Positions 2,326 through 19,338 of a stretch of DNA of 35,672 bases are shown here, piece by piece. The notes under the pieces are model-generated. The model ran no database searches, was not told where the DNA came from, and saw nothing but the letters and a program-made list of their open reading frames with translations. Numbering within the stretch: position 1 is the stretch's first letter; each line of letters begins with the position of its first letter. The position numbers and the translations under genes are program-made. This stretch comes from a virus. The stretch covers positions 1-35,672 of the IMG/VR virus record IMGVR_UViG_3300042922_001497; one strand, 5' to 3'.

Positions 2326-2729
2326 GGGATAGGCTCCTGTTTGACAAGGGTTCCAGGGTTAGCCTACCCCCGGAAACCGTCGCAGGCAACCATGCGAACC
2401 ACGTCCCTTCCTAGAATTGCGCCAGCTTCTCACGTGCTTGGCAGCTTTCCACGCTACCGCCTGAGATATTTCTTTATGGTCCAAGATGCTGGACTTGACC
2501 CCCGCGTTTTCGGGGGGTTGAAGTCCAACCATTTGCGCTCCCATGCCTGAAACCAAGCAGGCAAGCCATCGCGGTTTTTTGGGGATCGGGTTTCTACTGA
2601 ATTGCTCCCTGGAATGGTGCCCCTTATAGTAGCAAGTGAAACGCTGAAACCCGCACCATGTCTTTGTTTGAGACTGAGCTGCCTTGGCTATGACACGCCA
2701 TTACTAGGTTTATAGGTGGCGGAAAATCT
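2326..2729. other. Intergenic region upstream of integrase, with inverted repeats
   Basis: No convincing gene is seen in these 404 bases. There is a strong inverted repeat at 2490-2527: TGGACTT pairs with AAGTCCA, and an inner ACCCCCG pairs with CGGGGGGT apart from one bulge, around a TTTT loop region. A smaller hairpin, GCCTG/CAGGC, lies at 2549-2566 and is followed by a short T run at 2575-2580. That second hairpin could be a weak rightward terminator. The sequence is less GC-rich than the lytic genes. It should hold the integrase promoter, but I see no clear -35/-10 pair. Confidence 0.5.
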
Positions 2730-2924
2730 ATGACCCTTGCAGCAAGCGAAGTTCAGCCTATGACTTGGGACGAGATCATGCGCCAGGATAGCCGGATTCT
2801 CGGGGTAGGAGCCGCCGTTGCCTTGCTCGATAGCTTGGTGCTAGACTCGGAGCAATCGATCGAACCTTTGTTCGATGCGAGGGACGCGACGAAGCAGGGC
2901 CGCACCGGCGTAAGCGGCCTATGA
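2730..2924 (+). CDS. Small hypothetical protein next to integrase
   Basis: A 64-residue protein, not recognised. It begins MTLAASEVQPMTWDEIM and has a helical, leucine-rich middle (GVGAAVALLDSLVLDSEQS). A weak GGTGG/GGCGG-type ribosome binding site precedes the ATG. It lies in the lysogeny module near int and is followed within 2 bases by another small frame that may be translationally coupled. By size and position it is a candidate excision factor, but recombination directionality factors of serine integrases share no common motif, so this is only a positional guess. Confidence 0.45.
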   Translation: MTLAASEVQPMTWDEIMRQDSRILGVGAAVALLDSLVLDSEQSIEPLFDARDATKQGRTGVSGL

Positions 2925-2925
2925 C

Positions 2926-3105
2926 GTGACAGAATTTGCAGCCGGGGAGTGGATTGTGAACGAACTAGAGAGGATTAAGGGGCTGATCTTGCGGATGACG
3001 GAAAGCCAGCGCGCCAAATTCATCAGCGAACTTGAGACTCAGATCCCTTTGAACTTGTCCCAGCCAGGAGACCAAGTATCGAGGCGACAATCGCACTCTG
3101 CGTAG
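2926..3105 (+). CDS. Small hypothetical protein (GTG start, possibly coupled)
   Basis: A 59-codon frame starting at a GTG one base after the stop of the previous frame, with an alternative GTG at 2956. The predicted protein is amphipathic and helical (NELERIKGLILRMTESQRAKF), which looks protein-like, and then becomes a basic, serine-rich tail. Its 3' end overlaps the end of the leftward gene at 3039-3347. No family was recognised. Confidence is low because the ribosome binding site is poor and the end is antisense to another gene. Confidence 0.35.
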   Translation: MTEFAAGEWIVNELERIKGLILRMTESQRAKFISELETQIPLNLSQPGDQVSRRQSHSA

Positions 3106-3347
3106 ATTGGCGGAGAGTTATACTTCTTGCCAGTTTCCGCGTCAATGAACGGCGTTCCCATTGGCTGCTTCTGGCCTGCGAGTCGCTTGCAGATTTCACT
3201 CCGTTCCGATCTACCGAGGCGCCAAACATGATGAAGCCTTAAAGATGGCATGGACCTAGATATAGAAAGGTCCTGTCCATATACCTCTTGAAGTTCAGGC
3301 TCAAGATTGACATACAGCTTCCCGGTGCGCGGTCGAAAAATAGACAC
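3039..3347 (-). CDS. Hypothetical protein downstream of the repressor
   Basis: A 102-residue protein starting at GTG (3345-3347), three bases after the repressor stop codon (TAGACCGTG), so the two are almost certainly co-transcribed and coupled. It has a short N-terminal segment, several arginines and serines in the middle, and a C-terminal part with CDCRLDTWSPGWD. There is no HEXXH motif, so it is not an obvious ImmA-type anti-repressor protease. Co-expression with a lysogenic repressor suggests a role in lysogeny or immunity. The function is unknown. Confidence 0.65.
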   Translation of the reverse strand: MSIFRPRTGKLYVNLEPELQEVYGQDLSISRSMPSLRLHHVWRLGRSERSEICKRLAGQKQPMGTPFIDAETGKKYNSPPIYAECDCRLDTWSPGWDKFKGI

Positions 3348-3350
3348 GGT

Positions 3351-3716
3351 CTATTTACTCAGCTCTTGACTTTGAGCCCATTTAGCAAAATTGAGAATCT
3401 CCTGCCGCCTCTCAGGTGATACCGAGAGAGCGACCTGGATTAGCTCCGCTACCTGAGAATCTGGCAGTCCTTCGGGCTCCTGTAATTCTGGCGCTAGCCC
3501 CCTAGCTAAGCGATCCAAAATCTCATATGGAACATTAAAGGCTTGCGCTAAGCCGGTCAGCGTCTCCTGAGATGGCATCTCGGTATATCCTCTCTCGATT
3601 TTCGAGATCTGAGAGAACGAGACACCAGACTTTTCTTCCAAGTCTCGCTGAGTCCAACTTCTGCGACTGCGCTCTGTTCTAACGAAATTGCCTAAAGGCG
3701 TCTGTCTATCTGCCAT
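3351..3716 (-). CDS. CI-like phage repressor, helix-turn-helix (HTH_3/Xre family)
   Basis: A 121-residue protein with an N-terminal Xre-type helix-turn-helix at about residues 9-63 (WTQRDLEEKSGVSFSQISKIERG). The C-terminal part (about 75-121) is helical, short and acidic, and has no LexA-type Ser-Lys protease domain. Induction would thus not be by simple RecA-stimulated self-cleavage. It reads leftward, divergent from the Cro-like gene, with two operator-like sites between them, the standard arrangement of a lysogeny switch. No Shine-Dalgarno sequence precedes the ATG; a TATGAT box ends 7 bases before it, which predicts a leaderless mRNA. Confidence 0.88.
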   Translation of the reverse strand: MADRQTPLGNFVRTERSRRSWTQRDLEEKSGVSFSQISKIERGYTEMPSQETLTGLAQAFNVPYEILDRLARGLAPELQEPEGLPDSQVAELIQVALSVSPERRQEILNFAKWAQSQELSK

Positions 3717-3723
3717 GTTTCAA

Positions 3724-3729
3724 ATCATA
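3724..3729 (-). promoter_or_regulatory. -10 box of the repressor promoter (predicted leaderless start)
   Basis: The minus strand reads TATGAT, 5 of 6 matches to TATAAT, and ends 7 bases before the repressor ATG at 3716. Transcription would start at or next to the A of the ATG. No good -35 hexamer is seen at 16-18 bp. Operator site 1 (3729-3749) adjoins this box. Confidence 0.5.
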
Positions 3730-3749
3730 CACAAGTTCTTGCTGTGTTA
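3729..3749. promoter_or_regulatory. Operator site 1
   Basis: ACACAAG-N7-TGTGTTA, with imperfect dyad symmetry (ACACA/TGTGT). The same 7+7+7 pattern recurs at 3777-3797. It lies at the repressor promoter, so binding would control that promoter. Confidence 0.65.
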
Positions 3750-3773
3750 CTTTGTAAACTTCTTGTTTCACTG

Positions 3774-3801
3774 TTGACACAAGCGTTAGTTGTGTTATTC
3801 T
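3774..3801 (+). promoter_or_regulatory. Rightward promoter for the Cro-like gene
   Basis: A consensus -35 TTGACA (3774-3779), a 16-base spacer and a -10 TATTCT (3796-3801). Operator site 2 fills the spacer and overlaps both boxes, so bound repressor would block RNA polymerase. This would be the main lytic (PR-like) promoter. Confidence 0.7.
3777..3797. promoter_or_regulatory. Operator site 2
   Basis: ACACAAG-N7-TGTGTTA, the same spacing as site 1, with a perfect ACACAA/TTGTGT dyad. It lies between the -35 and -10 boxes of the rightward promoter. Centre-to-centre distance from site 1 is 48 bp. Confidence 0.7.
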
Positions 3802-3835
3802 GGAAACAACAGCAGCCGAACGATAGGAGGCCAAG

Positions 3836-16943: not shown

Positions 16944-17441
16944 ATGGCCAACAATGCAGCAGACAAACGGTTCTGGACCTGGACCTTCGCTGAGCTCGAG
17001 GTTTACTTCGGCATCCGGCGCGGGGGTACGTCCCACTACCTCAAGCGCAAGGACTTTCACCCGGAGATCCTGGGCGTCGTGAACCCCAAGCAGCTCGTGG
17101 ACACGGCGACTCACGCGGGCTTCGTGCCGATCCGGATGGGCGAGGACGGCAAGCGGGTGATTAACCGCCAGGTGGAGAAGATGCTGGGGGGGATTCCTCA
17201 CGGGGTCATGGATAAGGCGGTTCACGCTCTGGAGCAATCTGACCGTCAGAACCTCACCGACTATCACAAGAGCTTCATGGCGGTGCAGCGGCGCTCCCCG
17301 CTCGACACGATGGCGACAGTTGCCGAGCGGCGAAACATCGACGTGAGGACGCTCTACCGGCACCTTCGGCACGCCCTGGACTACATCTCTTGGTATTTGG
17401 ACGCGGAGAGCGAGGGATGGAAGGAAGGGACGGCTGTTTAA
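16944..17441 (+). CDS. Candidate late-gene regulator (ArpU/Q-like position)
   Basis: A 165-residue protein with a GATAGGAG site. The N-terminal half (WTWTFAELEVYFGIRRGG) could hold one DNA-binding element. The C-terminal part (MATVAERRNIDVRTLYRHLRHALDYISWYL) is a clear helix-turn-helix resembling sigma region 4/ArpU-type modules. It is the last early gene, directly before a repeat pair, -10 box and terminator, then the late genes. Phage late activators or antiterminators usually occupy this place. No family match was recognised, so the role is inferred from position plus helix-turn-helix. Confidence 0.62.
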   Translation: MANNAADKRFWTWTFAELEVYFGIRRGGTSHYLKRKDFHPEILGVVNPKQLVDTATHAGFVPIRMGEDGKRVINRQVEKMLGGIPHGVMDKAVHALEQSDRQNLTDYHKSFMAVQRRSPLDTMATVAERRNIDVRTLYRHLRHALDYISWYLDAESEGWKEGTAV

Positions 17442-17444
17442 GCT

Positions 17445-17483
17445 GTCGCGTTACGTGTCGCATAAGGCGTCGCGCAACGTGTC
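17445..17483. promoter_or_regulatory. Direct repeat pair, possible activator-binding site
   Basis: GTCGCGTTACGTGTC (17445-17459) and GTCGCGCAACGTGTC (17469-17483) differ at 2 of 15 positions and are 24 bp apart. They end 12 bp before a TATTAT box, so the second copy overlaps the -35 position, as for an activator-dependent promoter. Confidence 0.55.
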
Positions 17484-17495
17484 ACGTCAATCGAT

Positions 17496-17501
17496 TATTA
17501 T
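17496..17501 (+). promoter_or_regulatory. Possible late promoter -10 box
   Basis: TATTAT (5 of 6 to consensus) with no recognisable -35 hexamer. The repeat copy at 17469-17483 occupies the -35 position. Transcription would start near 17508 and meet a terminator about 75 bases downstream. Confidence 0.45.
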
Positions 17502-17581
17502 GCAAGTGTGGTTGTTCGCTACGCGGCGGCGGCCACTGGTTCATCGACTCCATCTCCTTACGTGTGCCGAATCCGGCAGAG

Positions 17582-17605
17582 GCCATCCCTTCGGGGGTGG
17601 CTTTT
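17582..17605 (+). terminator. Intrinsic terminator in late leader
   Basis: GCCATCCC-TTCG-GGGGTGGC stem (8 bp including one G-U) followed by TTTT. It lies between the putative late promoter and the late genes, and also ends the early operon. Confidence 0.82.
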
Positions 17606-17625
17606 GTCGTTTCTCCGAGGTGCCT

Positions 17626-17736
17626 ATGCAGCCGATCACCTACGACAAGCCTTGCCCCGAGTGCAACGCCTCGCACCGTGTCTCTCGCCAGCTCTGCGTG
17701 CGGTGTAACGGGACGGGGAAGGTGAGGGCGGTATGA
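17626..17736 (+). CDS. Zinc-knuckle miniprotein (36 residues)
   Basis: Starts at ATG 17626 behind CCGAGG. It has CPEC near residue 10 and CVRCNGTGK near residue 25, a complete two-knuckle site of the DnaJ CxxCxGxG type. It is the first of three tiny genes linked by ATGA-type overlaps. Too small for routine gene calling, but the paired knuckles and overlaps support it. Confidence 0.6.
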   Translation: MQPITYDKPCPECNASHRVSRQLCVRCNGTGKVRAV

Positions 17737-17816
17737 GCATGCGTGATCGCGTGCTGTGGAGCATCGCTTTCGCAGTGATGTTCCTTTGGCCGCTGCTGCC
17801 GGGGGTAGTTCGATGA
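17733..17816 (+). CDS. 27-residue predicted membrane miniprotein
   Basis: ATG overlaps the previous stop (ATGA) and its stop overlaps the next ATG. MSMRDR is followed by a hydrophobic stretch (VLWSIAFAVMFLWPLLPGVV) long enough to cross the membrane. It resembles small phage membrane peptides, but no function can be assigned. Confidence 0.5.
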   Translation: MSMRDRVLWSIAFAVMFLWPLLPGVVR

Positions 17817-17920
17817 CCTGCGCTGGCTGCGGGCAGCCCGGCATCCTCTTGCCGCTGACCATCCGGCGAAAGGTGGTCCTGATGTGCCAGCCCTGCATCA
17901 CCAAGGGCGCCGAGATTTGA
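17813..17920 (+). CDS. 35-residue zinc-ribbon miniprotein
   Basis: ATG overlaps the preceding stop (GATGA). It has CAGC at residues 3-6 and CQPC near residue 25, with a strand-rich middle (GILLPLTIRRKVVLM). It is the last gene before the 800-base gene-free region. The four spaced cysteines support a real, folded product. Confidence 0.55.
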   Translation: MTCAGCGQPGILLPLTIRRKVVLMCQPCITKGAEI

Positions 17921-17926
17921 CACATT

Positions 17927-17988
17927 GCAGGGCGGATGGCCCGGCGCGCTAAACAACCGCGCTGTCCCGTTCGACCCGGGAGCCCTGC
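17927..17988 (+). ncRNA. tRNA-like element lacking a D-arm
   Basis: Acceptor GCAGGGC (17927-17933) pairs perfectly over 7 bp with GCCCTGC (17982-17988). Directly 5' of that is a perfect T-arm, TCCCG-TTCGACC-CGGGA (17965-17981), in exact tRNA geometry. A GCGCG/CGCGC stem (17944-17962) with a 9-base loop takes the anticodon-arm place. Only 10 bases lie where the D-arm should be, and CCA is not encoded. It may be a degenerate tRNA or a tRNA mimic. Confidence 0.5.
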
Positions 17989-17999
17989 CCGCCTCATAA

Positions 18000-18042
18000 A
18001 GCCCGCCAAGCCTCTGCCTCGGCACGCTCAAACTGGCGGGCT
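18000..18042 (+). repeat. Perfect 9-bp inverted repeat
   Basis: AGCCCGCCA (18000-18008) and TGGCGGGCT (18034-18042) enclose 25 bases. No T run follows, so it is not a typical terminator. It belongs to the structured RNA region. Confidence 0.55.
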
Positions 18043-18150
18043 ACTACTTTGCGCGGACAGGCCCGTGAACCTGACCGGCGGTTTTAACGGATGCCGACCT
18101 GAGCGGTTAAGCATCCCCGCAAACGTGCCGCCCTTCCGCGCAAACCCCTA

Positions 18151-18361
18151 GCCCTGGGAGTGCCAGGGTGATTCCTGCGAGGTGTCGAAAGCCCGCGGGA
18201 ATGCCGCCTCGAATAACCGGGCGCGGCGTTTGGTTGCTTCTTCGGGTGCAGCCGCAAGCCTGATCCCCTGGTGGCTCCTCGCCTCAGACGACAGGGGCAG
18301 GGATGGATGGCCTTGGATGGTCACGGGGAAACCCGGCGGGTTCGACTCCCGCGACAAGGCA
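18151..18361 (+). ncRNA. tRNA-like unit 1 (split tRNA-Ser-like halves)
   Basis: The 5' half has a tRNA-like layout with GGTGTCGAAAGCC at 18181-18193, which would place anticodon CGA after U33 and before AA. About 140 bases later comes a perfect T-arm GCGGG-TTCGACT-CCCGC (18336-18352), then CAAGGC and A. The 5' GCCCTG pairs with CAAGGC with one mismatch; alternatively GCCTTG at 18310 pairs perfectly with CAAGGC around a GAAA-capped CGGG/CCCG hairpin (18324-18335). Same design as unit 2. Confidence 0.4.
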
Positions 18362-18363
18362 TA

Positions 18364-18578
18364 GCCGGGCGAGCGCCTGGTGTACCGCTGCTGGTGTCGA
18401 AAGCCGGGCACGGGACCCTGCGGGCGTGTGGAAGCGCTCTGTGGGTTAAGCGACGGGGGCCGTTCCTGGGATCAGGGGAGCGGCTCTTTCTCTTTTGATT
18501 GTTTCCCTCTGGACGTGCAGGGGGAGCCCGGGCGAGGTCCAGAGGCGGAGGCGGGCGGGTTCGAGTCCCGCGCCCGGT
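18364..18578 (+). ncRNA. tRNA-like unit 2 (tRNA-Ser-like halves with long insert)
   Basis: Acceptor GCCGGGC (18364-18370) pairs with GCCCGGT (18572-18578), 7 bp with one G-U. A D-arm-like GCG/CGC stem with GG in the loop follows, then an anticodon-arm-like CTGGT-GTCGAAA-GCCGG (anticodon CGA, U33, A37, A38). The T-arm GCGGG-TTCGAGT-CCCGC (18555-18571) joins the acceptor directly. Between the halves is an insert of about 145 bases containing a perfect CCTCTGGAC/GTCCAGAGG stem and a T-rich segment (18487-18504). It is either a tRNA carrying an insertion or a larger RNA with tRNA-like ends. Confidence 0.45.
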
Positions 18579-18717
18579 TAGCTTTCGGTCAGCTCTCGGT
18601 AGAGCACCTTGATAAGAGCGAGTCGGCCGTGGCGGTGCGTAGGGGTTACGGACATTCCCCCGGGCCTCCATCCTAGGGTCACAGTCGAGCCGAAGATTCA
18701 GACGAGAGGGTGACGAG

Positions 18718-19338
18718 ATGGCAAAGAAACCGGCCCCTGACTGGGAAGCCATCGAACGCGAGTACCGCGCGGGGCAGCTCAGCATCCGCGAGATTGCACG
18801 CAACCACGGCACCACGGACGGCGCAATTCGCAAACGTGCGAAGAAGGATGGGTGGGAGCGAGACCTCTCACAGCAGGTTCGTGAGAAGGTACGCGCGGAG
18901 CTGGTACGCGGCGAGGTACGCACACCTAACGCGCATGCGAACCAGCGCGAGGCAATCGACACCGCGGCGGCCCGTGGCGTCGAGGTCATCCGTTCGCATC
19001 GCAAGGACATCTCGGATGGCCGGAGCCTGGTTCAACTGCTACTCGGTCAACTGAAGACGGCGGCAGAGAACCGCGAGGAGATCGAAGAGGAGATCCTCGA
19101 AGAGACCGCTGGCGACGATAGCCCCAAGCGTCGGGGCTTCATGCTTCAAGCGATCAGCCTTCCGAAGCACGCCACCGCACTGAAGGATCTGAGCACGGCC
19201 CTGAAGAACCTGATCCCGCTCGAGCGCCAAGCCTTCAACCTAGACGAGCCCGGGCAAGGCGACCCCGGCGGACACCTGACCCCGGAGCAGGCCCGGGCGA
19301 TGGCGCGGGAGGTACTTGCCGATGGGGACGAAAGCTAA
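18718..19338 (+). CDS. terS: Terminase small subunit
   Basis: A 206-residue DNA-recognition subunit of the packaging motor. The N-terminal 45 residues form a helix-turn-helix (WEAIEREYRAGQLSIREIARNHGTTDGAIRKRAKKDGW), typical of terminase small subunits of the Terminase_5/phiX-like group. A central helical region (about 95-165) would form the oligomerisation core. The acidic C terminus should contact TerL. It overlaps the start of the large subunit by 17 bases. GAGAGGGTGACG precedes the ATG. It is the first late structural gene after the RNA locus. Confidence 0.88.
   Translation: MAKKPAPDWEAIEREYRAGQLSIREIARNHGTTDGAIRKRAKKDGWERDLSQQVREKVRAELVRGEVRTPNAHANQREAIDTAAARGVEVIRSHRKDISDGRSLVQLLLGQLKTAAENREEIEEEILEETAGDDSPKRRGFMLQAISLPKHATALKDLSTALKNLIPLERQAFNLDEPGQGDPGGHLTPEQARAMAREVLADGDES

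Follow-up and report, generated by a model that had tools for sequence, protein, structure and literature searches.

What does a phage keep in 797 gene-free nucleotides directly ahead of its terminase genes? The window analyzed here is the whole of an IMG/VR virus record, 35,672 bases in length, with the gene order serine recombinase, Erf, primase-helicase and RusA, followed by terminase, portal with head-morphogenesis domain, protease and others; nearly all genes called by a hexamer gene finder lie on the + strand. The stretch in question and the gene that follows it are:

17921–18717, + strand: gene-free RNA island of 797 nt, flanked by three short ORFs on one side and the terminase small subunit gene on the other
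18718–19338, + strand: terminase small subunit gene, next after the island (given for context)

The gene finder left 17442–18717 uncalled, the second largest such stretch of the window. Because 17626–17920 reads as three short overlapping ORFs (17626–17736, 17733–17816 and 17813–17920, two of them with CxxC motifs), the true gap starts at 17921, and from there to 18717 the claim of a first-pass annotation that no credible gene is present was borne out by both ORF reading and the gene finder. A scan of 17300–18800 revealed no sigma-70 promoter, and the whole island showed no DNA similarity to named phages. Further upstream, a TCGCGTTACGTGT-like repeat of 13 nt occurs three times at 17446–17565, in a 184-nt gap right after the gene ending at 17441; the copies could constitute an operator array for late transcription. 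The largest uncalled stretch of the window (2326–3835, 1510 nt) adjoins the serine recombinase gene and could contain short genes, or attP together with regulatory sites.

The size of the region, its gene-free state, its prophage-type context and its repeats and hairpins would suit one large ornate RNA that fills the gap and acts as a single folded particle, GOLLD- or ROOL-like and possibly of a new class, as the first-pass annotation had proposed. We consider this very improbable. Rfam covariance models detected no GOLLD, ROOL, OLE or tmRNA in the island, the first three not even at an E value of 5. The dense structure ascribed to the region is not a global property, as its overall folding energy is no better than that of shuffled sequence (whole-region MFE z = −1.09) and the mean z of 120-nt windows is −0.28 in the island versus −0.37 elsewhere in the record. 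In the closest relative (L217, syntenic, TerL 76%), the pre-terminase gap shares only one hairpin with the island, described below, for which homologues provided compensatory changes; the rest of that gap does not align, which argues against a single new class of large RNA. A portal-based search for closer relatives returned none. The island is modular rather than a single giant ornate RNA, and its only identifiable RNA, contrary to the earlier impression that nothing recognizable was present, is a member of a small known family found here without its toxin gene. A weak YrlA match at 18555–18605 (17.3 bits, E 1.9), which would have indicated a Y-RNA-like module, was judged to be due to chance.

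The identified RNA is the following:

18001–18041, + strand: orphan abiF RNA (Rfam RF03085), hairpin GCCCGCCAAGCCTCTGCCTCGGCACGCTCAAACTGGCGGGC, found by Rfam match

Rfam places the match at 18002–18041 and scores it at 37.5 bits, above the RF03085 gathering threshold of 37. A second model, built on an alignment of viral copies that contains the window sequence itself, gave E 1e-10, with 53.4 bits on the + strand and 19.8 on the other. The conserved core A-AGC-CUCU...GCU-CAAA is present with its two helices, this exact core never occurred in shuffled sequence, and the hairpin folds at z −3.8. The base after CUCAAA, U in most copies, is C in the window copy; C is also found in 10 of 45 viral and, among the matches listed, 6 of 123 bacterial copies. 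The bacterial abiF hairpin is an antitoxin: it binds the toxin AbiF (Abi_2), a HEPN RNase, and blocks it. AbiF is related to Cas13 and regarded as its likely ancestor. The Clostridioides difficile abiF RNA acts in trans by binding AbiF (PMC12373285), and AbiFr is likewise the RNA antitoxin of AbiF (PMC12737573).

A type III toxin-antitoxin system would place the abiF RNA directly upstream of a same-strand Abi_2 gene. No Abi_2 gene (PF07751) was found anywhere in the window record, which instead presents what is expected of an antitoxin mimic, an antitoxin RNA in a phage without the toxin gene. This orphan state is general among viruses. The exact core pattern was found in 45 viral and at least 119 bacterial contigs, and at sites with at least 1 kb of downstream sequence an AbiF gene lay directly downstream on the same strand in 67 of 100 bacterial cases, among the matches listed, versus 1 of 40 viral ones (Fisher p 1.4e-13), leaving 33 and 39 orphans, respectively. 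Profile searches detected Abi_2 in 35 of 39 motif-bearing bacterial genomes (again among the matches listed) versus 1 of 45 viral records, and a looser pattern yielded 96 viral sites whose outer stem was good; at two of them, an AbiF-like ORF lay in the DNA examined. The RNA occurs in isolated phages, including Acj61, S-CREM1, S-SZBM1, many mycobacteriophages, Aeromonas T7-like phages, CRP-143, Mimi and CGphi29. Fragment length is not the reason for the orphan state, since none of nine complete named genomes with the RNA (T4-like, T7-like, cyano-, myco-, Arthrobacter and Salicola phages) encodes Abi_2. Given that the phage has an antitoxin RNA without a toxin, we propose that the RNA is probably an antitoxin mimic that neutralizes host AbiF in trans during infection. 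As a third of the bacterial sites among the matches listed are orphans too, abiF RNA may also have uses beyond opposing AbiF. A region of lactococcal phage sk1 reportedly, by the title of a paper by Rince from 2000, protects phage 712 from AbiF; the abiF model found nothing significant in sk1 (L336), so that the protection may come from another kind of mimic or from a protein.

Copies of the hairpin in other phages show signs of selection. L217 keeps the abiF RNA in the same pre-terminase gap (34.9 bits, just below the Rfam cut-off of 37) and has no Abi_2, and CGphi29 carries it in an 807-nt gap before the terminase genes. A further pre-terminase case was observed in L037 (2517–3432, − strand), where some 0.6 kb separates an orphan abiF RNA from a downstream gene similar to the small terminase gene of CGphi29. 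Two related phage contigs have another RNA, int-alpA (RF02996), upstream of terS (L004, 2810–2875; L008, 2575–2643). Across viral copies the core is constant while the stem varies with compensation: an inner A-U pair of the window is C-G in L217 and U-A in CGphi29 and the Aeromonas phages, and the stem of Acj61 is CCAGCC/GGCTGG. The closing pair was paired in 84 of 98 cases versus 42.5 by shuffling (largest shuffle 60), a count confined to the outer pairs left free, because the core and one block of stem pairs are set in advance by the looser pattern.

The hairpins might instead serve the phage itself, for example as transcription terminators, transcript-end stabilizers or late-gene leaders unrelated to AbiF. 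Many copies are indeed followed by a T run, and the hairpin lies between structural genes in T7-like phages and before terminase in the window and CGphi29. However, the unpaired core AAGCCUCU...GCUCAAA is conserved and not the stem alone, the same core accompanies AbiF in bacteria, and the window copy is without a T run (GGCGGGCTACTACTTTG), making such a role unlikely in our judgment.

The abiF RNA does not stand alone in the island. The T-arm-like hairpins described in the first-pass annotation proved to include three canonical T-arms with an acceptor-like stem, all on the + strand:

17927–17988, + strand: tRNA-like element 1, a 62-nt mini-cloverleaf that ends 12 nt before the abiF RNA
18310–18360, + strand: tRNA-like element 2, a three-way junction with a 6-bp acceptor-like stem, a CGGG-GAAA-CCCG hairpin and T-arm GCGGGTTCGACTCCCGC
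18527–18578, + strand: tRNA-like element 3, with a 6-bp acceptor-like stem and T-arm GCGGGTTCGAGTCCCGC

Element 1 folds unaided as a mini-cloverleaf, with a 7-bp acceptor (GCAGGGC/GCCCTGC), a 2-bp D-like arm, a 7-bp anticodon-like arm with a 9-nt loop and a 5-bp T-arm with the loop UUCGACC. The acceptor stems of elements 1 and 2 are fully closed in the MFE fold; for element 3, a competing hairpin is favored when a longer piece is folded to its MFE. The number of these elements is well above chance, as 2000 dinucleotide shuffles of the island produced a T-arm with acceptor stem in 0.2% of cases and two in none. These observations support the earlier view of non-coding RNA with a tRNA flavor on the late strand. 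A functional tRNA or tmRNA was also considered and rejected: ARAGORN called no genes at default settings and only inconsistent low-score ones when relaxed, Rfam gave only low-score tRNA-Sec-like matches, and no full cloverleaf was recognized as a tRNA. Further downstream, 18583–18700 resembles the 5' half of a tRNA, with a D-arm-like AGCTC-TCGGTA-GAGC and, after it, a hairpin of 4 bp whose 7-nt loop reads ATAAGAG; the overall fold of this segment is no better than that of shuffles.

Elements 2 and 3 belong to a diverged tandem duplication, and the repeats noted earlier were confirmed (19 nt at 18335/18554 and 13 nt at 18181/18393):

18150–18362, + strand: unit 1 of the ~215-nt tandem duplication
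18363–18582, + strand: unit 2 of the ~215-nt tandem duplication
18181–18193, + strand: 13-nt repeat GGTGTCGAAAGCC, copy 1, forming the apex of a hairpin of the 9-bp class in unit 1 (z −3.4)
18393–18405, + strand: 13-nt repeat GGTGTCGAAAGCC, copy 2

A pattern scan for the 13-mer plus T-arm unit returned no matches, and the 13-mer with a short flank returned 16, all of them lying in open frames 104 codons long or more and taken as chance. The tRNA-like elements were sought in L217 and CGphi29 and were not found there. Since relatives of neither were found, the roles of the tRNA-like folds and of the duplicated units are read from form alone.

Other phages provide a parallel for the position of element 1. 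A tRNA on the same strand is found no more than 150 nt away at 25 of 96 viral abiF sites, typically at a spacing of 8–16 nt, versus 7.6 sites expected from random positions in the same loci; because some contigs are near relatives of each other, these sites represent fewer independent events. In S-CREM1 the abiF RNA lies between tRNA-Asn and tRNA-Gly, in an array that also holds wcaG and manA RNAs, and in Mimi it directly follows tRNA-Tyr; the mini-cloverleaf of the window occupies the place of the tRNA in those phages. This arrangement suggests that the abiF RNA may be excised by way of tRNA-type ends. In two related viral contigs (L032, 1755–2150, − strand; L057, 4100–4320, + strand), an orphan abiF RNA likewise lies downstream of another tRNA-like element, one that has T-arm GCGGGTGCGAGTCCCGC and is closed by an acceptor-like stem.

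Could the island instead be a relic, a decayed tRNA array with the remains of a lost AbiF toxin-antitoxin system and no present function? T-arms are often the best-kept part of decaying tRNAs, and complete AbiF systems are present in a few viral contigs (L064, L267) and in C. difficile prophages (PMC12373285). Relics, however, would not remain intact across many unrelated lineages of phages while acquiring compensatory changes, nor would they keep a short constant spacing to tRNAs, and elements 1 and 2 still close their acceptor stems fully. We therefore regard decay as quite unlikely, somewhat more so than a service to the phage itself.

Taken as an antitoxin mimic, the abiF RNA of the window leads to a model in which the island would be a cargo site for small RNAs expressed on the late, packaging strand. 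During infection the abiF RNA would be supplied as a trans-acting mimic and would hold host AbiF in an inactive complex once the cell's own stock of antitoxin is disturbed by the infection. The tRNA-like folds would probably be punctuation for RNase P and RNase Z, as the true tRNAs flanking abiF RNA would be elsewhere. As toxin-less copies recur in unrelated phages, often in tRNA clusters, abiF RNA may be a common RNA trick to disarm AbiF defense. If many unrelated lineages do carry the antitoxin RNA alone, this would amount to a widespread RNA-only counter-defense, testable at once with isolated phages. It would also supply a further reason for phage tRNA arrays, which may double as anti-defense RNA arrays; phage tRNAs have been shown to act in counter-defense (PMC11555353).

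More speculatively, and with considerable doubt, phages might keep dedicated anti-defense RNA islands, tRNA arrays in large phages and a gene-free pre-terminase leader in small ones, in which orphan antitoxin RNAs are combined with degenerate tRNA-like folds that act as processing sites and as decoys for tRNA-cleaving defenses; the ~215-nt units would then be further, undescribed mimics of defense RNAs.

Among known systems, GOLLD and ROOL resemble the island as long gene-free phage stretches with a tRNA flavor; the island differs in having neither a family match nor a global folding excess. An abiF sRNA has been reported in S-CREM1, with three phage members in Rfam (PMC9964418). S-CREM1 is also a phage without Abi_2, and its copy lies in a tRNA array, whereas the window has only tRNA-like folds and no functional tRNA. 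The accessible part of that report contained no proposal of an anti-AbiF role, nor did we find a statement of such a role for phage abiF RNA in the open literature searched. Compared with the antitoxins of AbiF systems (abiF RNA, AbiFr, RCd22), the window RNA is the same hairpin with the same conserved core, but it occurs once, in a gene-free island that also has tRNA-like folds, and the record contains no AbiF gene. rAcrVIA1, a phage RNA inhibitor of Cas13a (described in PMC13288109), is likewise a small phage-borne RNA that uses mimicry to fill the RNA site of a HEPN RNase; compared here by description, it differs in imitating crRNA structure for Cas13a. The pseudo-ToxI of phage phiTE was experimentally shown to imitate a type III antitoxin (PMC3475682) and is, as proposed for the window abiF RNA, a phage-borne antitoxin-like RNA without a toxin; its target is ToxN, it is a repeat-array RNA expanded by escape mutants, and the effect demonstrated there by experiment is, for the abiF RNA, a prediction.
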